NCBI GenBank assembly: GCA_030710605.1
Contig: CP092863.1
Location: forward strand, 137,610,994 to 137,674,993
DNA: 64,000 bases
Reading direction: 5' to 3'
DNA from: Cordylochernes scorpioides
Taxonomy: Eukaryota; Arthropoda; Arachnida; Pseudoscorpiones; Chernetidae
Program-made: the position numbers and the translations under genes
Notes under the pieces: model-generated
The model's database searches: none
The model's input: the letters and a program-made list of their open reading frames with translations, nothing else
Told to the model about the DNA's origin: nothing
Shown here: piece after piece, positions 536 through 62,375 of the stretch
How positions within the stretch are numbered: position 1 is the first letter of the stretch
Layout of the letters: each line of letters begins with the position of its first letter

Positions 536-868
536 ACCATTTTTTGACGGGAGAGGCGACCCGTGTCTCTTTAGATTAATTTCCTCCCGGCAAAATTTCC
601 ATCTATATTTTAGCCATAGATTTGGCCCAGTCACTTTGCCAGCTAAACACCTCTTTGGCAGATTGTCAAGATTCCTTTAGATCCAGTGTGGATCTCATGG
701 AATAAAGTCCGCGCTAGACCGACGAGGGCCATTAGCCCGAAACCATGGTCTCTAGATGGACGCTTTTCTGTTGGCCAAAGCTGGTGTTGTGGCTTTGTCA
801 CTGACCCGAGGTCGCTAGTTGTAGACGTCTATTTTGACGCGAGAGGCGACCCTTGCCTCTTTAGATAC
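536..868 (+). mobile_element. Family F element with short terminal direct repeats and a hammerhead
   Basis: Inserted into the first 192-bp unit; units 2 and 3 provide the uninterrupted sequence. Both ends carry a related block of about 30 bp containing GAGAGGCGACCC (551 and 841, exactly 290 bp apart) and CTCTTTAGAT. A second copy, single-unit, lies at 57267-57530 and relics at 2170-2270 and 38170-38335. It contains a hammerhead-like fold at 707-761. The layout (a unit of about 290 bp with a repeated end and one ribozyme) resembles animal retrozymes or partly tandem Penelope-type copies; that assignment is inference. Confidence 0.6.
707..761 (+). ncRNA. Type I hammerhead ribozyme, one core substitution
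   Basis: Order on +: outer stem I GTCC (707-710), inner stem I CTAGA (714-718), core CCGACGA (719-725; consensus CTGANGA, so U4 is C), stem II GGGC(CATTA)GCCC (726-738), GAAA (739-742), stem III ACCATGGT (742-749), C17 (750), inner stem I TCTAG (751-755), outer stem I GGAC (758-761). Both stem I segments pair perfectly and leave an internal loop, as in natural type I hammerheads with tertiary loop contacts. The predicted cleavage is after GTC at 750. The U4C change probably lowers or abolishes activity. Confidence 0.65.
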
Positions 869-1254
869 GATAATAGTGTTATAATACACTAAAATAATAT
901 AATAGAGGTAATCAATTTAAAATGGTATTCTTTCAGTTAGAAATAAACATTTTTAAAAAGTGAAAATATATTGTCAATATTGAGAATAATTTTAGGAAAA
1001 ATAGAGTCGAGAGATAATAAACACATATGTAAATAGTTTGTTTACAAAATCTATAATGACCATTACTACGATAATAGTTATACTGAAATAATAGTAAAGG
1101 CAAATTAATTAAAATAGTAATCTTTAAGTTAGAAATAAACATTAAAAAAAGTGAAAATATATTGGCAATGTTGAGAATAAAGATAGGAAATAGAGTCGAA
1201 TAGATTTTGTAAACAATGCCTCTATTTACATATATATTTACATACCTATTTATA

Positions 1255-1500
1255 TGCCTTTTTTATTTAAGATTTATTCATATTTGAAACTATTATAGAC
1301 GCGTATGATTCTTTTGAAAATTAAACAATTTCTACTGTCCTTACTGCAATATATTTTTATTATTGTATGTAATTCTACTGTCCTCAAAGCTTATGTCCAT
1401 AGTTCATCTAAAATACCCATTCCAAGAGTCTAGCATCAGTATCACTATAAAATGAAGTTCCGAAAAATGCAATATAACAGCGGTATGGTAATAGATTTAT
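1255..1500 (+). repeat. Family D foldback repeat, partial
   Basis: Contains the D landmarks ATTATAGACGCGTATGATTC, TTTCTACTGTCCTTACTGCA and AAGCTTATGTCCATAG found together in the fuller copies at 19530-19935 and 34746-35040. The central GGGAGGG hairpin and the second arm are missing. Confidence 0.6.
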
Positions 1501-1584
1501 TTATGGATTGCTCTATTTACATATGTAAATAGAGGCATTGTTTACAAAATCTATACTACAATAATAGTTATACTAAACTAGTAT

Positions 1585-2015
1585 ATAACTAGGGTTGTAT
1601 AGAGCTAGTCAATTGGGGGATTAAGGAGTGGCGAAGGGATGTATTTAAGAAGGGTAAATTCGAGGATTACCCTCGTTGTCCAAACAAGATTAGTCTGTGC
1701 AGAAGACAGTCTACTTTAATCTTCTGCTCACTTTTTTAAAAGCCATTTCTTTTATTATTATTATTACTTTAAAATAGACCATGTTCGTATAATATATTTA
1801 TTATATGTGTCTAAATCATATATATTCAAATTTTAAAATCATTCCTATTTTTTTTTATTTATTCCTTATTTACATATATATATTGTTTGGCAGACGATAT
1901 TTAAATCTATTGGTAATATTTACATTTTAGAACTATTTTTCAAAATTATAGCAATATTTAGTAATAAATAATAAGATAATAAACTGAAAAAATATATGTT
2001 ATATTTAATTAAAAA
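1585..2015. other. Unassigned, AT-rich
   Basis: A short, more GC-balanced island (1600-1720, with GAGGATTACCCTCGTTGTCC) is followed by low-complexity AT sequence. No repeat partner in the window and no convincing reading frame. Confidence 0.4.
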
Positions 2016-2019
2016 GGTA

Positions 2020-2150
2020 TTGGATCAAAATATAATTTATTTACCAATATTTCAGTTGGCTGAACGCCAACCTTTTTCAAGATATTAATCCAATATATGC
2101 CTTTTTAATTAAATATCTATTTATGGATTGCTCTATTTTAAAAATATATA
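2020..2150 (-). repeat. Family B repeat copy
   Basis: Carries both B ends (AAAGGTATTGGATC and GGATTGCTCTATTTT) and, read on -, a centre GTTGGCGTTCAGCCAAC followed by TGAAATATTGG. This is the diverged ribozyme-like hairpin discussed for the copy at 41540-41720. The segment before stem II (TTGAAAAAGG) is far from the hammerhead core, so this copy is a relic. Confidence 0.6.
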
Positions 2151-2154
2151 TATT

Positions 2155-2300
2155 TATATATCTAAAGAAACAAGGGGCTCCTCGGCCGTCAAAATAGACG
2201 TCTAAAACCAGAGAAAACCTAAAAACCATGTTTCTTTAGATCAATTTCCACCCGGCAAAATTTTCATTTATATTTATATATATTTTTTAAATAAGATTAT
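2155..2300. repeat. Fragments of family F in both orientations
   Basis: Contains an inverted piece (CCGTCAAAATAGACGTCTA, complement of 825-840) and a direct piece (TTTAGATCAATTTCCACCCG, compare 573-595). No hammerhead remains. Downstream to 2850 is AT-rich sequence in which I see nothing recognisable. Confidence 0.45.
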
Positions 2301-2852
2301 TTACATATAAAGGGTATTAAAAATATAATGAGCAGACGAAAAATTTAGATTAATATCTTTATTTGATTAATATATTAAAAAATGGTTCTAAATAATTATA
2401 ATCATTATTAATTATCTTTTATTAACATTTTTCAACATGTAGATCATATCATCATAGTTTTCAATGAATTTAATAATATTTAAGATGGTCAACACGTAGC
2501 TTTTTGTAACCATTTTACCATATTTCATATATAAGCGACTAAATATTTTCATATCAGAGTAGAAATTCCTTTTAAATAACCATTTGGATTCCCATTTTTA
2601 AATATGAAAAGAAAAACCTATTTGTGGATCTAGTTAACTGACCGCTCTCTAATTCTGAAATGGCTTTGTCAATAAATCAATTTATTTTAGAAGTGGCGTA
2701 TAAAATCATTTATCATTTTTCTTTATAGCTAAAAAAATTGACGCTTTGTTTTTAAGATATCTAGTGCTTTGCAAATAGTTATTTTATATTGTCTACATTT
2801 TAAATTCCTGTTTATTTCTAACAGTAGTTTTATTCTATTATCAATTAAGATT

Positions 2853-3135
2853 CACTCATGGACAAAACTTAAGTAAGTTGTACCTTTTAAAATGTATATC
2901 GGGATTGAGACAATAACTCTGAAAGATATTACAGTAACCTTTATTGAAGACACACGAGATAACCAAGTGTGAACAAAACTTAAGGAAGTTGTACCTTTCA
3001 GAATGTATATCGGGATTCAGACGATAACTCTGAAAGATATTACAGTGACCTTTATTGAAGACACACGAGATAATCAAGTGTGAACAAAAACAAACGAACG
3101 GCGAAATCAAAGACTTCCCACTTCCTTAAGTGTTG
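2853..3135 (+). mobile_element. Family A mariner-type MITE, two internal units
   Basis: Starts with CACTCATGGACAAAAC and ends with a degraded inverted copy (CTTCCTTAAGTGTTG). The internal unit that begins GAACAAAACTTAAGG occurs at 2971 and 3082, spacing 111 bp. The family has 22-24 bp inverted ends and TA flanks, which places it with Tc1/mariner-derived MITEs. It encodes nothing. Confidence 0.75.
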
Positions 3136-3139
3136 TCTC

Positions 3140-3630
3140 TCTCTCCATATAAGATAATGTATATATGTAATAATTATTAAAAAGAGATAAATTAAAGATG
3201 TTTTCGACAAGTAATTTTGTATATCGATAGATATTTTTTTCGTATAGGGAAATATCATTATTGGAAAAGTGTGGAGGTATCGATTTAAGTGTTTCTTTGA
3301 TGTCGGTGAAATCAAACTTATCAACCAAATATATTTTGTCCAAATATTTCTGTCTCATTCAAAGAGAGATATTGGGTGAAATATTCCCACAATATACTTA
3401 CTTTACATAACTTAGAAATGTAATTTTCTTACAGACTGCTTCAAATATGTGGCTATTTCTTCTTCAGTTTCTCTGTTTATTGGCAGGTCGTGATGTCCAA
3501 TGACGTAATGCTTATTTCTATCTATTTAAAAAAAATAGTTTTCTTACAGAAGATTAATCTAATTGTTATTCTTTCCTAAGTTCAAATTCAATTCATTTAC
3601 AACTTTCTTTATCAATATATTTTTCTCTCA
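3140..3630. other. Unassigned
   Basis: AT-rich sequence between two family A elements. Overlapping minus-strand frames at 3052-3358 run through unrelated repeat ends and have no recognisable domain. I see no gene here. Confidence 0.4.
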
Positions 3631-3635
3631 ATATA

Positions 3636-4240
3636 CACTCATGAACAAAACTTAAGGAAGTTTTACCTTTCAGAGTGTATATAGGGATACAGACAATAAC
3701 TCTGAAAGATATTACAGTGACCTTTATTGAAGACACACGAGATAACCAAGTGTGAACAAAACTTAAGGAAGTTGTACCTTTCAGCATGTATATCGTGATT
3801 CAGACAATAACTACACTGAAATATATTACAGTGACCTTTATTGAAGACACACGAGATAACCAAGTGTGAACAAAACTTAAAGAAGTTGTACCTTTTAGCA
3901 TGTATATCGTGATTCAGACAATAACTCTGAAAGATATTACAGTGAACATTATTGAAGACACACGAGATAACAAAGTTTGAACAAAACCTAAGGAAGTTGT
4001 ACCTTTTAGCATGTATATCGTGATTCAGACAATAACTCTGAAAGATATTACAGTGACCTTTATTGAAGACACACGAGATAACAAAGTTTGAACAAAACCT
4101 AAGGAAGTTGTACCTTTTAGCATGTATATCGGAAACTCTGAAATATATTTGATTATAATGGTCTGTACCATTTATGTGTACTAGGGATAATAATAAAATA
4201 AAAAGTCTTATTGAGATTTGAACAAAAAGCGGTTGAATCA
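3636..4240 (+). repeat. Family A MITE with amplified 111-bp tandem units
   Basis: A normal left end with TA flank (TA 3634-3635) is followed by units starting at 3643, 3754, 3868, 3979 and 4090, with spacings of 111, 114, 111 and 111 bp. The right end is diverged. The array keeps one minus-strand frame open for 192 codons because the unit length is divisible by three. The resulting repetitive peptide (CVFNKGHCNIFQSY repeats) is an artefact of the tandem repeat and not a protein. Confidence 0.85.
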
Positions 4241-4929: not shown

Positions 4930-5175
4930 TAACTACAACTTTATTAAGACCACCAGTCTTATACATATTCATCACAGGAAGGAAACATAGATGGAGCTCC
5001 TATACTCAAGGCAGCACAGAACCCAACAATATTTGATACACACATACAGCTATAATAAGACCACCAGTCTTATACAGATTCACCACAGGAAAAAAGAAGC
5101 ATAGATGGAGCTCCTATACTCCAAGCAAGCACAATCAAACAACAGCCTCCAGGTCCAACACATGTCCATAGATTA
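4930..5175 (-). mobile_element. Family H retroposon 3' end, two tandem copies
   Basis: The block AAGACCACCAGTCTTATA occurs twice about 108 bp apart. On - each reads GTATAAGACTGGTGGTCTTAA followed by TAAAG and often GTGTGT, i.e. a stem-forming 3' end of a short retroposon. Other copies are at 25425-25490, 27090-27200, 57545-57640 and 60385-60435. Confidence 0.6.
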
Positions 5176-7067: not shown

Positions 7068-7320
7068 GATGGACATTTCCTCATCGTGCAACTAGAAGTT
7101 TCTAATGGTTTGCGCCATCTGACAGAATAAATATCAACTATAGTCGTTGATTTTTTTTTCAATTATTCCATAATGTTAGCCGAATACCCTATCTTGATTG
7201 GCTAAAAAAAAAGCCAATCGCGTACGCGTTTCGGGTTGTTGGCCCCCTTCAGCGTGGTGCAGGCTGTATAACGAAGATCAAAGTCTTTGAGGCTTCCAGA
7301 AAAAAATGAAGGGTATTTAA
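7068..7320 (-). mobile_element. Family C element with degraded hammerhead (7219-7260)
   Basis: One arm (7078-7165, GCAACTAGAAGTTTC...GCGCCATCTGACAG) is followed by the ribozyme-bearing half. On - the centre reads ACCACG, CTGAAGG, GGGCCAACAACCC, GAAA, CGCGTA. Compared with 15759-15812, A9 is G, stem II has one mismatch and stem I no longer pairs, so the ribozyme is probably dead. Confidence 0.6.
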
Positions 7321-9955: not shown

Positions 9956-10260
9956 AGGGGGGTCAGTGGAAGGATGGTCTAAATCATTGGTTTTCGACCG
10001 CTACGACCCGGGTTCGATTCCCGCATTGGGCACTTTTTTCTGATTATAAAAATAAATAAAATGCTCTGATGGCCGCCGATTCTTGCAAAAGTCCACACCC
10101 ACCAGCGAGTACAAGTAACCAAACGGGGGTCTGGCACATTTGTAAGTGCAAAGTCGAACTGTTTTTCACATGTGGTGCACTTACAGTAAAAGTAGTCGCC
10201 TACTTCTACCCACCATGATTATCATGGCCTATACTACGTGTACTAGGGATAAGCAAAGAA
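9956..10260 (+). mobile_element. tRNA-derived SINE (family E), full length
   Basis: The head is tRNA-related: an A-box-like segment (CAGTGGAAGGATGGTCTAA, 9964-9982) and a perfect RNA polymerase III B box GGTTCGATTCC (10011-10021), ending in GCAC. The body contains AAGTCCACACCCACCAGCGAG, GTGCACTTACAGTAAAAG and CCACCATGATTATCATGG, and the 3' end is A-rich. It does not fold as an intact tRNA, so it is a SINE and not a tRNA gene. Transcription by polymerase III would start just upstream of the head. Confidence 0.85.
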
Positions 10261-10269
10261 AAAAAATAT

Positions 10270-10445
10270 TGTTTTGAAAATAGAGCAATCCTTAAATAAA
10301 TCTTTAATTAAAAAGGCATATATTGGATCAAAATATTTATTTTACCAATATGTTATACACCTTGATAAAGGTTGGCGTTCAGCCAACTGAATTATTGATA
10401 AAATAAATAATATTTTGATCCAATATACGCCTTTTTCAATAAAAT
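10270..10445. repeat. Family B foldback copy with altered centre
   Basis: Both ends point outward (AATAGAGCAATCC at left, AATATACGCCTTTTT at right). On + the centre reads CCTTGATAAAGGTTGGC, GTTCA, GCCAACT, GAATTATTG: the GAAA of the ribozyme-like core is GAAT here. Confidence 0.65.
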
Positions 10446-12793: not shown

Positions 12794-13292
12794 CACCCAT
12801 GAACGAAACTTAAGGAGGTTGTACCTTTTAGCATGTATATCGGAACAATAAATCTGAAAGATATTTGATACACAGTGACCTTTATTGAAAACACAGGAGA
12901 TAACCAAGTGTGAACAAAACTTAAGGAAGTTGTACCTTTTAGCATGTATATCGGGATTCAAACAATAACTCTGAAAGATATTACAGTGACCTTTATTGAA
13001 GACGCACGAGATAACCAATTGTGAACAAAACTTAAGGAAGTTGTACCTTTTAGCATGTATATTGGGATTCAAACAATAACTCTGAAAGATATTACAGTGA
13101 CCTGTAAGTTTTGTGAACAAAACTTAAGGAAGTTGTATCTTTCAGCATGTATATCGGGATCGGGACAATAACTCTGAAAGAAATTTGATACATAGCGACC
13201 TTTGCCAAGTGTGAACAGACTCTGTCTCCTTGAAAAAACAGACGACGGGCGTCATCAAAATATGAAATTTCCTTAAGTTTGGTCCAGGATTG
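12794..13292 (+). mobile_element. Family A MITE with four internal units
   Basis: Flanked by TA (12792-12793, 13293-13294). Units start at 12801, 12912, 13023 and 13114, the last shortened. The right end is diverged (CCTTAAGTTTGGTCCAGG). Encodes nothing. Confidence 0.8.
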
Positions 13293-15599: not shown

Positions 15600-15935
15600 G
15601 TGAGATACCGAGATATATTAAGAAAAAGGCATCTCCTTATTGTGCAACTGAAAGTTGCTGATGGCTTGCGCCATCTATTGAAATAAATATCAACTATTCT
15701 CGTAGATTTTTAATTATTCCAGAATTGGCCAAATACCCATTCTTGATTAATCAAGAAAAGCTAACCACGGACGCGTTTCGGGCTGTTGGCCCTCATCAGC
15801 GTGGTGCAAGCTGTATCTCAACGACCAAAAAAACTGGTCCTTCAGGCATCCTAATGCCTGATGCCTTTTTCTTAATTTATGCACCTTATCCCAGTACAAT
15901 ATCACATTTGTACTATTTTTCCCACCGAGATATAT
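15600..15935 (-). mobile_element. Family C element with intact hammerhead core
   Basis: An arm (GCAACTGAAAGTTGCTG...GCGCCATCTATTG, 15640-15690), the ribozyme centre (15759-15812), a spacer with a small inverted repeat (GGTCCTTCAGGCATCC) and an end block (GCACCTTATCCCAGTACAAT). Related copies at 31180-31590, 38421-38466, 40060-40320, 55530-55640 and 60920-61010 mostly lack the centre. No protein coded; mobilisation would need enzymes in trans. Confidence 0.7.
15759..15812 (-). ncRNA. Type I hammerhead self-cleaving ribozyme
   Basis: Read 5' to 3' on -: outer stem I AGC, internal loop TTGC, inner stem I ACCACG (15805-15800), core CTGATGA (15799-15793), stem II GGGC(CAACA)GCCC (15792-15780), GAAA (15779-15776), stem III ACGCGT (15776-15771), C17 (15770), inner stem I CGTGGT (15769-15764), loop TA, outer stem I GCT. 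Every conserved core base is present, the cleavage triplet is GTC, and both stem I segments pair perfectly. Stem III is a palindrome with no loop, so the active form may be a dimer, as known for newt satellite and some viroid hammerheads. Confidence 0.82.
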
Positions 15936-30380: not shown

Positions 30381-30805
30381 TACTCATGAACAAAACCTAA
30401 GGAAATGAAAAGTCTTTGATATTTATATTTTTTTAAGGAGACAGAGACAATTTTGTTCACACGTGGTTTACTTGTGTGTCTTCAATAAAGGTCACTGTTA
30501 TATCTTTCAGAGTTATTTTCTGAATCTCAAAATACATGCTGAAAGGTACAACTTCCTGAAGTTTTGTTCACACTTGGTTATCTCGTGTGTCTTCAATAAA
30601 GGTCACTGTAATATCTTTCAGATTTATTGTTTAAATCTCAATATACATGCTGAAAGGTACAACTTACTTAAGTTTTGTTCATGAGTGTATATTGGTTATC
30701 TCGTGTATCTTCAATAAAGGTCACTGTAATATCTTTCTGAGTTATTGTCTTAATCCCGATATACAAGCTAAAAGGTACAACTTCCTCAAGTTTTGTCCAT
30801 GAGTG
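30381..30805 (-). mobile_element. Family A MITE, inverted orientation, three units
   Basis: Left end TACTCATGAACAAAAC, right end GTTTTGTCCATGAGTG followed by TA (30806-30807). An additional internal terminus with TA (GTTTTGTTCATGAGTG, 30688-30689) shows that the tandem unit includes part of the terminal repeat. The + frame 30463-30684 repeats CVFNKGHCNIFQ and is an artefact. Confidence 0.8.
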
Positions 30806-38169: not shown

Positions 38170-38335
38170 ATAAGAGGTGTATTAGTCCGAAATCATAATC
38201 TCCAGATTGGCGTTCTGAATTTACCAAATCTGGTGTTGTGTATCCGAACCATGTTCACTCAATTGCAAAGACGGTCAATAGATGACGCATAATTTGTGCG
38301 TCTATTTTGACAGGAGCGGTGGACACTTTCGTTTT
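38170..38335 (+). repeat. Family F relic with decayed hammerhead
   Basis: 38178-38202 reads GTGTATTAGTCCGAAATCAT followed by AATCTCC, aligning with the F ribozyme at 57355-57380 (CCATTAGCCCGAAACCATAG). 38223-38330 continues with the F body (CTGGTGTTGTG, AAAGACGGTCAATAGATGAC, CTATTTTGACAGGAG). The CTGANGA half is lost. Confidence 0.5.
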
Positions 38336-38420
38336 ATTAGATATATATTTTTCAAGAGATCACTTTTTTTTTATTAAAGATATTTTCAAATATATATTTC
38401 ATAATATAAATAAACAAAAC

Positions 38421-38466
38421 GTATCACATACGCGTTTCGGGCTGTTGGCCCTCGTCAGCGTGGTAC
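38421..38466 (-). ncRNA. Type I hammerhead ribozyme, complete core
   Basis: Read on -: stem I GTACCACG (38466-38459), core CTGACGA, stem II GGGC(CAACA)GCCC, GAAA, stem III ACGCGT, H17 A (triplet GTA), stem I TGTGATAC (38428-38421). Stem I pairs with one G-U and one C-A mismatch. All invariant core bases are present. It stands almost alone: the family C arms are missing around it, so it is an isolated centre of a C element. Confidence 0.7.
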
Positions 38467-38499
38467 AGGGTTTAGATATTAAACAAAGTGATCTGAGGT

Positions 38500-40040: not shown

Positions 40041-40059
40041 ACTTCTACAGTATAATATG

Positions 40060-40320
40060 AAAAAGGCATCTCCATATCGTGCAACTGAAATTTGCTGATG
40101 GCTTACGCCATCTATCGGAATAAATATAAACTATTCTTGTTGAATTTTAATTATTCCAGAAGGAAAACAAAATCAACGAGAATAGTTGATATTTATTCCG
40201 ATAGATGGCGCAAGCCATCAGAAACTTTCAGTTGAACGATAAGGAGATGCTTTTTTTCATAATTTATGCACCTTATCCCAGTACAACATCACATTCGTAC
40301 TATTTTTTTCACAGTAAAAT
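40060..40320. repeat. Family C foldback without ribozyme
   Basis: Arms 40066-40155 and 40165-40255 (ATTTGCTGATGGCTTACGCC and its mirror) joined by a 20-bp spacer, ending in CACCTTATCCCAGTACAAC. The compact form may result from deletion of the centre. Confidence 0.7.
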
Positions 40321-45355: not shown

Positions 45356-45359
45356 ATAC

Positions 45360-45596
45360 ATTTGGTTATCTCGTGTATGTTCAACAAAGGTTACTGTAAT
45401 ATCTTTCAGAGTTATTGTCTCAATCCCGATATACATGCTAAAAGGTACAACTTCCTTTAGTTTTGTTCACACTTGGTTATCTCGTGTGTCTCCAATAAAG
45501 GTCACTGTAATATCTTTCAGAGTTATTGTCTGAATCCCGATATACATGCCGAAAGGTACAACTTCTATAAGTTTTGTTTTTTTTCCATAAGTGAAC
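45360..45596 (-). mobile_element. Family A MITE, truncated, two units
   Basis: Two internal units (TTGGTTATCTCGTG at 45362 and 45473, spacing 111 bp); the left terminus is missing and the right one is degraded (TTTTCCATAAGTGAAC). Confidence 0.75.
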
Positions 45597-56739: not shown

Positions 56740-56980
56740 AAAAGGTAATTGTAAATTATTTGAATAGAAATAGGTATACACGGCGAAAATTTTATTTTTT
56801 TCTTTGGAGACAAAGAGTAATATGAGGTTGTAGATCTTATTTGACTATTTTGAAGCAGGCCTATACGAAATTTGGAAATTTTACCATTTGGCAATAAAAA
56901 GGAAACAGATTCATCCCCACATTTTATTATTTTCTGTTTATCAAAGATTATTATTCTGAATATAGAGCAATCCATAATAT
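56740..56980. other. Unassigned
   Basis: A 103-codon minus frame (56673-56984) overlaps family G and is not recognised. Confidence 0.3.
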
Positions 56981-56981
56981 A

Positions 56982-57170
56982 CATCTTTTAAAAATAGGGT
57001 TTATTTTGGATTTTAATAAGATAATCTATTAATTCCAATATTTCGATGGACCAATCGTCCATCTTTTATGAGGTACCTTACCTCGTAAAAGATGGAAGAT
57101 TGGTCCATCGAAATATTGGATTAAGAGAATATCTTATTACAATCCAAAATAAACCTTATTTTTAAAAGAT
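56982..57170. repeat. Family O palindrome carrying ribozyme-like cores on both strands
   Basis: 189-bp near-perfect foldback from ATCTTTTAAAAATAGGGTTT to AAACCTTATTTTTAAAAGAT. Each arm contains GATGGA, a short loop (AGATTGG or mirror), TCCATC, GAAA, TATTGG: stem II, GAAA and the same TATTGG seen in family B. The core segment is CTCGTAAAA, well away from CTGANGA. Outer flank TATAGAGCAATCC is the B end. Confidence 0.65.
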
Positions 57171-57266
57171 TATTATAATAAGTAAAATCTCCCTCTCCCT
57201 ATTTCTATTGAAGCAATCCCATGTATTTACTTGAATAGGAAGACTAAATAAATACAATGCAAATAC

Positions 57267-57530
57267 CAGCTAAACACCTCTTTGGCAGATTGTGAAGATT
57301 CCATTAGATCCCGTGTGGATCTCATGGAATAAAGTTCGCCCTAGACTGACGAGGGCCATTAGCCCGAAACCATAGTCTCTAGGTGGACGCTTCTCAGTTT
57401 GCTAAAGCTGGTGTTGTGGCTTTGTCACCGACCCGAGGCCGCTAGTTTGCGGAGACGGTCAATAGATGGCGTCTTGTTTTGACGTTTAATTTGACGGGAA
57501 AGGAGCCCTATGCTAATTTAGAAAGCAAAT
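57267..57530 (+). mobile_element. Family F element, single unit, with intact hammerhead
   Basis: CCAGCTAAACACCTCTTTGG, ATTAGATCCCGTGTGGATC, ribozyme, GCTGGTGTTGTGGC, GACCCGAGGCCGCTAG, GGTCAATAGATGGCGTC and TTTGACGGGAAAGGAGCC. Matches 639-866. Has only one copy of the terminal block, unlike the 536-868 copy. No protein coded. Confidence 0.7.
57334..57388 (+). ncRNA. Type I hammerhead self-cleaving ribozyme, best copy
   Basis: Order: outer stem I GTTC (57334-57337), inner stem I CCTAGA (57340-57345), core CTGACGA (57346-57352), stem II GGGC(CATTA)GCCC (57353-57365), GAAA (57366-57369), stem III AC(CATA)GT (57369-57376), C17 (57377), inner stem I TCTAGG (57378-57383), outer stem I GGAC (57385-57388). 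The core is fully canonical, the triplet is AGTC so cleavage falls between 57377 and 57378. Stem III is two pairs with a tetraloop, so the monomer could fold. The internal loop in stem I is where tertiary contacts with loop II are made in known natural hammerheads. Confidence 0.85.
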
Positions 57531-57544
57531 GCGTTTATACACAC

Positions 57545-57640
57545 ACACACACAAAGCCTTTATTAAGACGTTAGTCTTATACAGATTCTCCGTACAAGGT
57601 GCAATAACAGGAAAAGAGAAGCACAGGAAACCAGTAGTTC
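57545..57640 (-). mobile_element. Family H 3' end with CA tract
   Basis: ACACACACACACACAAAGCC, TTATTAAGACGTTAGTC, TTATACAGATTCTCC. Confidence 0.6.
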
Positions 57641-57665: not shown

Positions 57666-58400
57666 CTAGACGAATGGCCCGGGCAACGCCCGGGTTTTAC
57701 CCGAGTGCGAATATATTTTAAAAACGTTGTCTTGGGTGGTCGCTATAGACAGGGTGATCTGTATAGACAGGTGTATGTATCACACAGCTGATAACAGGGT
57801 TGTCTAGAGTGGCCGCTATAGACAGGGTGGTCTGTATAGACAGGTGTATGTATCACACTGCTGATAACAGGGTTGCCTAAAGTGACCGCTATAGACAGGC
57901 TGGTTTGTATAGACAGGTGAATGTAACACACTGATGATAACAGGGTTGCCTAAAGTGACCGCTATAGACAGGGTGGACTGTATAGACAGGTGGATGTATC
58001 ACACAGCTGATAACAGGGTTGTCTAGAGTGGCCGCTATAGACAGGTGTATGTATCACACAGCTGATAACAGGGTTATCTAGAATGGCCGCTATATACAGG
58101 GTGGTCTGTAAAGACAGGTGGATGTATCACACAGCTGATAACAGGGTTGTCTAGAGTGGTCGCTATAGGCAGGGTGGTCAGTGGTCGCTATTGACAGGGT
58201 GGTCTGTATAGACAGGTGGATGTAACACACTGCTGATAACAGGGTTGTCTAGAATGGCCGCTATAGACAGGTGTATATATCACGCAGCTGATAACAGGGT
58301 TGTCTAGAGGGGGGCAGGGAGGACACGTGTTCGCCGGCAGCCAATGGGCGCGCATTCTATCCGTGAGCTTCAGACAGAATAAGGCAATTATATATATAGA
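57666..58400 (-). mobile_element. Non-autonomous Helitron, complete (735 bp)
   Basis: On - the 5' end is TCTATATATATAATTGCC (TC at 58400-58399) preceded by A. The 3' end is CTAG (57669-57666) followed by T, so the insertion is between A and T as Helitrons do. Eight bases before CTAG lies a strong hairpin CCCGGGC(GTT)GCCCGGG (57678-57694). No Rep/helicase gene. The interior is mostly a 73-bp minisatellite, which is common in short Helentron-type derivatives. Terminal structure and target fit are directly visible; the subclass is inference. Confidence 0.85.
57735..58310 (-). repeat. 73-bp minisatellite inside the Helitron
   Basis: GATAACAGGG starts at 57790, 57863, 57935, 58009, 58064, 58137, 58235 and 58289. 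Spacings are 73, 72, 74, 55, 73, 98 and 54 bp. The 55-bp units lack an 18-bp internal duplication (GGTGGTCTGTATAGACAG) present in the 73-bp units. CGCTATAGACAGG recalls the pogo-like MITE ends at 9465 and 48012. Confidence 0.85.
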
Positions 58401-61870: not shown

Positions 61871-61877
61871 ATTTGTA

Positions 61878-62005
61878 TATACGAGGGCCAATAGACCGAA
61901 ACGCGTACCTGGTTGGCTTTATTTTATTTGATTTATGTTCCACTAGATGGCGTTCTGCCATCTAAATCATGGGAGCGGTCAGGATACGGCTTTTTATTTT
62001 TAATT
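61878..62005 (+). repeat. Family K copy with hammerhead 3' half
   Basis: 61881-61910 reads ACGAGGGCCAATAGACC, GAAA, CGCGTAC: the last core bases, stem II (one mismatch), GAAA, stem III and triplet GTAC of the C-type ribozyme. CTG of the core is replaced by TAT. It is joined to a K body (CCACTAGATGGCGTTCTGCC, GAGCGGTCAGGATACGG). Shows that K and C are parts of one larger family. Confidence 0.6.
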
Positions 62006-62071: not shown

Positions 62072-62375
62072 TACTCATAGGGAAAGCTAAAGGAAGTTGT
62101 ACCTTTTACCATGTATATCGGGATTCTCAGACAGACTCTGAAAGATATTACAGTGACCTTTTTTGAAGATACACGAGATAACCAAGTTTGAACAAGTTTG
62201 TACCTTTTAACATATATATCGGGATTCACACAATAACTCTGAAAGATATTACAGTGACCTTTATTGAAGACACACGAGATAACCAAGTGTGAACAAAATT
62301 GCCTCTGTCTCCATAAAAAAAAATAGACAACCGGCCACATCAAAGACTTTCCACTTAAGTTTTATCGATGCGTGT
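62072..62375 (+). mobile_element. Family A MITE, two units, degraded ends
   Basis: Units with GATATTACAGTGACC at 62143 and 62246. The termini (TACTCATAGGGAAAGC; TTTTATCGATGCGTG) are diverged. The long minus frame here is an artefact. Confidence 0.75.

Follow-up and report, generated by a model that had tools for sequence, protein, structure and literature searches.

A hammerhead ribozyme (HHR) motif in the genome of the pseudoscorpion Cordylochernes scorpioides is likely, on our reading, to be a type I HHR in one copy of a high-copy, non-coding, metazoan-type non-LTR retrozyme that inserts in the manner of Penelope-like elements (PLEs). The motif lies in a window of 64,000 nucleotides from contig CP092863.1 (assembly GCA_030710605.1), and the repeat that holds it is here called family F. 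In animal genomes, retrozymes house most of the classical type I hammerheads, and the enzyme that moves animal retrozymes has only been proposed, with PLEs as the strong candidate (PMC7229834; this paper, PMC11167929 and PMC3846280 are cited from excerpts throughout). The insertion pattern of family F is of main interest because it bears on which enzyme that is.

The hammerhead motif

Every part of the motif is found, on direct reading, where the initial annotation had placed it (Table 1). The core comprises CUGANGA, GAAA and NUH with stems I to III, and stem I is open. Mussel HHR motifs lack most nucleotides of the loop-loop tertiary contacts (PMC7229834).

Table 1. Hammerhead motifs and family F pieces in the window (motif parts read from sequence).
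Feature	Position	Strand	Remark
Type I HHR motif	57334..57388	+	predicted cut between 57377 and 57378
Outer stem I	GTTC 57334-57337 / GGAC 57385-57388	+
Inner stem I	CCTAGA 57340-57345 / TCTAGG 57378-57383	+
Core box CTGACGA	57346-57352	+
Stem II, GGGC(CATTA)GCCC	57353-57365	+
Core box GAAA	57366-57369	+
Stem III	A57369-T57376 and C57370-G57375	+	loop CATA 57371-57374
Cleavage triplet GTC	57375-57377	+
Family F copy F57 (the window copy), carrying the HHR	57266..57524	+	from unit coordinate 208 (5') to site A (3')
Candidate target duplication GCAAAT, left half	57259..57264	+	9 bp, AATGCAAAT, in sister L010
Candidate target duplication GCAAAT, right half	57525..57530	+
Family F copy F06	542..866	+	slightly more than one unit; HHR 707-761, core U4 -> C at 720
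Family F remnant F02	2160..2274	.	two short head-to-head arms, ending at sites A and B respectively; HHR lost
Decayed family F copy F38	38174..38315	+	core lost
F2 HHR	15758..15811	-	stem III ACGCGT, intact core
F2 HHR	38417..38470	-	intact core
Further F2 site	7211-7264	-
Further F2 site	61871-61919	+

A strict descriptor that requires CTGANGA, a stem II no shorter than 4 bp, GAAA, a 2-bp stem III, NTH and a stem I again no shorter than 4 bp matches the window three times, at this motif and at 38458 and 15799 on the minus strand, and has no match in 1000 dinucleotide shuffles; about 0.001 matches per window are expected from base composition. The claim that the motif is unlikely to have arisen by chance is thus borne out. 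A looser HHR score is less decisive, giving the motif 10.2 and the best of 30 shuffles 9.4 and 8.4.

The window also holds a second hammerhead family, F2, with the palindromic stem III ACGCGT. The initial annotation had named the lack of a significant covariance match as a refutation, and for Rfam that outcome is seen at the window motif: the Rfam hammerhead models give no match there at the gathering score, nor at E up to 5-10. Hammerhead_HH9 (RF02275) matches an F2 motif at 15750-15815 with 26.5 bits, below the cut-off of 52 bits, and does not match the window motif. By contrast, a covariance model built from nine F2 motifs, three of them in the window and the window motif excluded, finds the latter at 24.2 bits (rough E 5e-6) and the HHR of copy F06 at 22.1 bits (rough E 2.7e-5). 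Because the strict descriptor beats the shuffles and the F2 model finds it, we regard this HHR as real as a motif, with catalysis only predicted; the absent Rfam match probably reflects the Rfam library rather than the motif. Its placement as a type I HHR within a repeat family is backed by the descriptor, by the F2 model and by the number of cores in the genome, and the label "fully canonical" suits the core and helices but is overstated as a whole.

The 2.62-Gb genome (24 contigs) contains 9,970 exact HHR cores, 4947 on one strand and 5023 on the other, and the control pattern, the core read backwards, does not occur in it. The 14 HHR core positions are less variable than other positions of the element, with a mean minor share of 0.003 vs 0.044, although conservation of the 55-nt motif as a whole is unexceptional, with 42 of 195 windows of the element as low.

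Self-cleavage of the window-copy monomer, which the initial annotation proposed, is possible in the fold models but less favored than was claimed. The best predicted fold, at -19.9 kcal/mol, is not a hammerhead, and the hammerhead fold reaches -12.0 kcal/mol (these energies, and those for dimers below, leave out tertiary contacts). This best fold, the lacking Rfam match and the loss of core or motif in two of the three other family F pieces in the window would all suit a chance or relict match with no catalytic role; set against the empty shuffles, the 9,970 genomic cores and the low variability of the core positions, such a match is highly improbable.

Copies, unit and folds of family F

The window copy consists of a single arm and keeps its core intact, and its sister copy L010 duplicates the same insertion. 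Copy F06 is 92% identical to it over 182 bases, and the flanks of F06 align to an uninterrupted paralogue at about 935-1150 (boundary by eye), which looks like the empty site of that insertion.

Two samples of the genome underlie the counts that follow. The first DNA search went through 4466 candidates, 40 of which were scored, and 39 loci were fetched around scored matches; they were chosen for likeness to the window copy and so form a biased sample, with duplicates among them (L010 of F57, L033 of L023 and probably L048 of L024). The second sample consists of 100 listed places among the 9,970, which all fall within the initial 32 Mb of contig 1, selected by the core alone with no further likeness to the window copy. 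Core and stem II are kept in 38 of the 49 HHR regions that were located by their flanks in the 39 fetched loci.

From locus L025, which spans more than a single unit, the unit is measured at 319 nt with a GC content of 0.49; that of the window copy is 0.48. When arms are aligned to repeats of this unit joined end to end, 22 of 86 exceed its length, and start points are permuted. Same-strand neighbors within 1.5 kb occur just twice among the 100 listed places, each time at a spacing of exactly 319 bp. Arms longer than a unit, permuted starts and neighbors at 319 bp are as expected of copied circular or multimeric RNA. No ORF of at least 100 aa lies over the window copy.

Metazoan non-LTR retrozymes have units of about 170-400 nt, also found in tandem, with a GC content given as <50% in the text and <45% in a legend of the source; one family of the class, from mussel, measures 350-390 bp and has about 5000 HHR copies (PMC7229834). 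Family F agrees with them, and notably with the mussel family, in its type I HHR with a short stem III, and shares with the class the size of its HHR unit, short non-coding units that are permuted or in tandem, thousands of copies, GC below 50% and target duplications longer than 4 bp (PMC7229834). Unlike the mussel retrozyme (about 350-390 bp), it has a unit of 319 nt with a GC content of 0.49 and is described here from genomic DNA. We take it to be a new family within a known class, the metazoan non-LTR retrozymes.

Stem III of the window copy reads ACCATAGT, with the loop CATA, which is rare: 1 of the 100 listed genome copies has it, as do 3 of the 38 intact motifs in the fetched loci. Among the 100 listed copies (of 9,970), 91 have a stem III that reads ACCATGGT or the loop equivalent CATG, giving an 8-nt palindrome. 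Two CATG copies are computed to pair eight bases and form a double hammerhead. For a CATG copy of the L012 type this structure reaches -46.8 kcal/mol, and the best dimer fold, at -51.6 kcal/mol, is a variant of the same layout; for the window copy it reaches -27.8 kcal/mol vs -42.6 kcal/mol for the best dimer fold, and the CATA loop is predicted to weaken it. Because most listed copies have a palindromic stem III, dimers may be the form in which the family F HHR works best. For axolotl motifs with a short stem III, cleavage is reported to be better in dimers, and HHR_Amex1 has a palindromic loop (PMC7229834). Family F resembles HHR_Amex1 and HHR_Amex2 in its very short stem III but differs from them in sequence and host, and activity, shown for the axolotl motifs, is computed only for family F (PMC7229834).

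A 258-nt family F copy folds with a z of -5.1, and counts of base-pair changes in the family gave its helices no support beyond controls. In the competing monomer fold, one pair has both of its bases changed between F57 and F06, which at first seemed to favor that fold; this argument was dropped because, in 24 family F copies, the loop base varies without its partner.

Two patterns specific to family F had no match in viral contigs. A looser pattern picked out one viral contig (IMG/VR IMGVR_UViG_3300032237_000390), in which a hammerhead-like motif of other sequence lies around 10220-10290 on the minus strand, with a long stem III hairpin and a 6-bp stem I (GGTTTA/TAAACC); Rfam gave no match to this motif at E up to 1. 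Prokaryote genome contigs gave no match.

Other repeats lie around the window copy and elsewhere in the window. Just upstream is a long, near-perfect fold-back (56974-57179; 42-nt arms with 3 nt between them and 60-nt outer arms). Rfam microRNA-family matches in the window, including one to this fold-back, were set aside: all are below cut-offs, and the four alignments viewed lie on inverted repeats. Just 3' of the copy (about 57545-57595) is a dispersed repeat of roughly 50 bp, with six more at 5038, 22677, 25419, 27186, 39511 and 60432, and further downstream a tandem array (57726-58271) has a 73-bp unit with 55- and 25-bp spacing variants. Another tandem repeat, with a length of about 101-111 bp, occurs on both strands in at least six places (2862-3089, 3642-4131, 12800-13103, 30451-30796, 45358-45578 and 62097-62296). 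Fragments of F2 also form inverted pairs (40051-40267), and F2 is present in several of the fetched loci.

Insertion sites and head-to-head pairs

Family F inserts end at two preferred places. Among 73 outward 3' ends, 36 fall in site A (unit positions 125-151, most often 141) and 28 in site B (170-183, most often 177), so that 64 of 73 lie in one or the other and nine elsewhere; the two sites are 36 nt apart. The reference unit has two occurrences of the word TCTAT, whose last bases, 141 and 175, are next to A and B. Inserts commonly consist of two arms placed head-to-head, and these combine the two sites: 21 of 30 such pairs are A+B, one is A+A, none is B+B and eight have an unclassifiable end. 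The sole A+A pair, L027, has a masked right flank. The ranges of A and B were defined after the first 20 loci had been viewed; the 19 loci fetched later (L030-L048) hold 17 pairs, of which 11 are A+B (10 without L048) and six unclassifiable.

The same orientation appears in the sample chosen by core alone, where neighbors within 1.5 kb of the 100 listed places are head-to-head in eight cases, tandem in two and tail-to-tail in none. Counter to the pattern, four fetched loci (L020, L023, L025 and L033) carry an additional tail-to-tail fragment, and these fragments are perhaps separate insertions. In L047, the flanks of the insert are reverse complements of each other, as in a larger inverted duplication or an assembly fold-back.

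A word of at least 8 bp is common to both flanks in 25 of 45 inserts; when the flanks were re-paired 200 times, this held for 5.3 inserts on average and for 11 at most. Part of these matches are AT-rich simple repeats, some of them (TA)n; the shared words of L011, L013, L017, L020, L021, L030, L038, L041, L045 and L046 are not simple TA repeats. The target duplications measure about 9-14 bp and flank entire head-to-head pairs, for example in L011, L013, L020 and L021. Because the duplications enclose the whole pair, they argue for one insertion event per pair.

Duplications of this length would suit LINEs too, and we considered whether a LINE-type enzyme moves family F in the manner of a SINE, with inverted copies arising by twin priming. 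In twin priming, the internal point at which the inverted arm starts varies, whereas the head-to-head arms of family F end at the fixed sites A or B, and 21 of the 22 fully classed pairs have one of each. ARAGORN found no tRNA head in family F. We consider movement by a LINE-type enzyme decidedly unlikely. A scan for A and B boxes with three mismatches allowed gave weak, scattered matches only. Head-to-head inserts with two fixed 3' ends are not described for retrozymes in the excerpts of PMC7229834, and no report joining retrozymes with head-to-head inserts was found in the literature searched.

Penelope-like elements as candidate partner

In PLE inserts, an inverted pLTR lies adjacent, one inverted pLTR bears a 31-bp tail at its 3' end, and the TSD measures 8-10 bp (PMC3846280). 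In assays with a purified PLE protein, AT-rich DNA is cut on both strands, and reverse transcription starts at two adjacent internal sites, the interval between them being the tail (PMC11167929). Family F carries these marks, namely two start sites separated by a few tens of nt, a tail on one of the inverted ends and a TSD, and is further like PLEs in its head-to-head copies, the shortness of its TSDs, its AT-rich targets and the position of its HHR upstream of the starts (PMC11167929, PMC3846280). Unlike PLEs, family F lacks an ORF and has a looped stem III, and it shows no similarity to the sampled GIY-YIG-bearing loci.

Those loci come from the same genome, in which a search for GIY-YIG coding stretches gave 146 matches among the 150 that were scored of 17,015 candidates. 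From these, 33 GIY-YIG-bearing loci (L050-L082) were examined, 30 of them taken with about 1.5 kb on each side, and two, L081 and L082, have ORFs with RVT_1 and a C-terminal GIY-YIG. In the PLE family to which these two belong (17 loci), 13 of 38 piece ends fall at reference 695-720, 10 at 735-760 and 15 elsewhere; L081 has one end in each cluster, and both sampled ends of L082 lie in the second. Shortly upstream of the ends, 9 of the 17 loci have a minimal HHR (CTGACGA, a long stem II, GAAAC and GTC, with no stem III loop), and L053 has a decayed version of it. The order of HHR, first start, tail and second start is common to this PLE family and family F.

A further locus, L080, has an 810-aa ORF (1248-3680, minus strand) with an N-terminal GIY-YIG and no RVT_1 match, within a large inverted repeat. 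This ORF may resemble PLEs with permuted domains; a PDB search with it gave no match.

With PLE end marks present, family F might itself consist of solo pseudo-LTRs or fragments of an autonomous PLE that lies outside the sampled loci, rather than being an independent retrozyme. Published PLEs have HHRs near the junction of pLTR and ORF (PMC11167929), and the common stem III of family F, ACCATGG, would be a good start-codon context. However, blastn to E 0.1 found no similarity to family F in the 33 GIY-YIG-bearing loci, which are a small part of the 17,015 candidates; the 319-bp tandems have no ORF, nor does the window copy, and no ORF with RT and GIY-YIG lies inside a family F element in the window copy or in L050-L082. 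The particular form of this explanation in which family F is a pLTR with an ORF starting in the HHR is unsupported by the sampled loci and is retained as a rival. Taken together, we judge an origin of family F as solo pseudo-LTRs or PLE fragments to be unlikely.

By analogy with these elements, we infer that PLE machinery moves the family F retrozyme. In the version to which we incline, with modest confidence, the PLE protein would cut both strands of an AT-rich site and start on circular or multimeric ribozyme RNA at A and at B, which would give head-to-head pairs with exactly one tail; the retrozyme would imitate the PLE start signal downstream of its HHR. Insertion of PLEs in vitro is independent of HHR cleavage (PMC11167929), and for this reason the family F HHR probably serves RNA processing.

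The cycle that we propose runs as follows. Tandem family F copies would be transcribed, and the HHR would cut the multimer into units, best as the computed double hammerhead formed through the palindromic stem III. The units would then be ligated into circles, as has been published for other retrozymes. A PLE RT/GIY-YIG protein, to which published PLE biochemistry and the resident PLE family point, would cut AT-rich DNA on both strands, and reverse transcription would begin at either internal site, A or B, 36 nt apart, and proceed along the circle or multimer. Finally, the cDNAs of the two strands would join head-to-head, as the observed pattern of ends suggests.

If this account is true, family F inserts record the integration of a metazoan retrozyme and identify PLEs as its autonomous partner. 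Because this genome contains PLEs alongside thousands of family F insertion scars, and the scars examined bear the marks of PLE insertion, the question of the partner is directly testable in this family.
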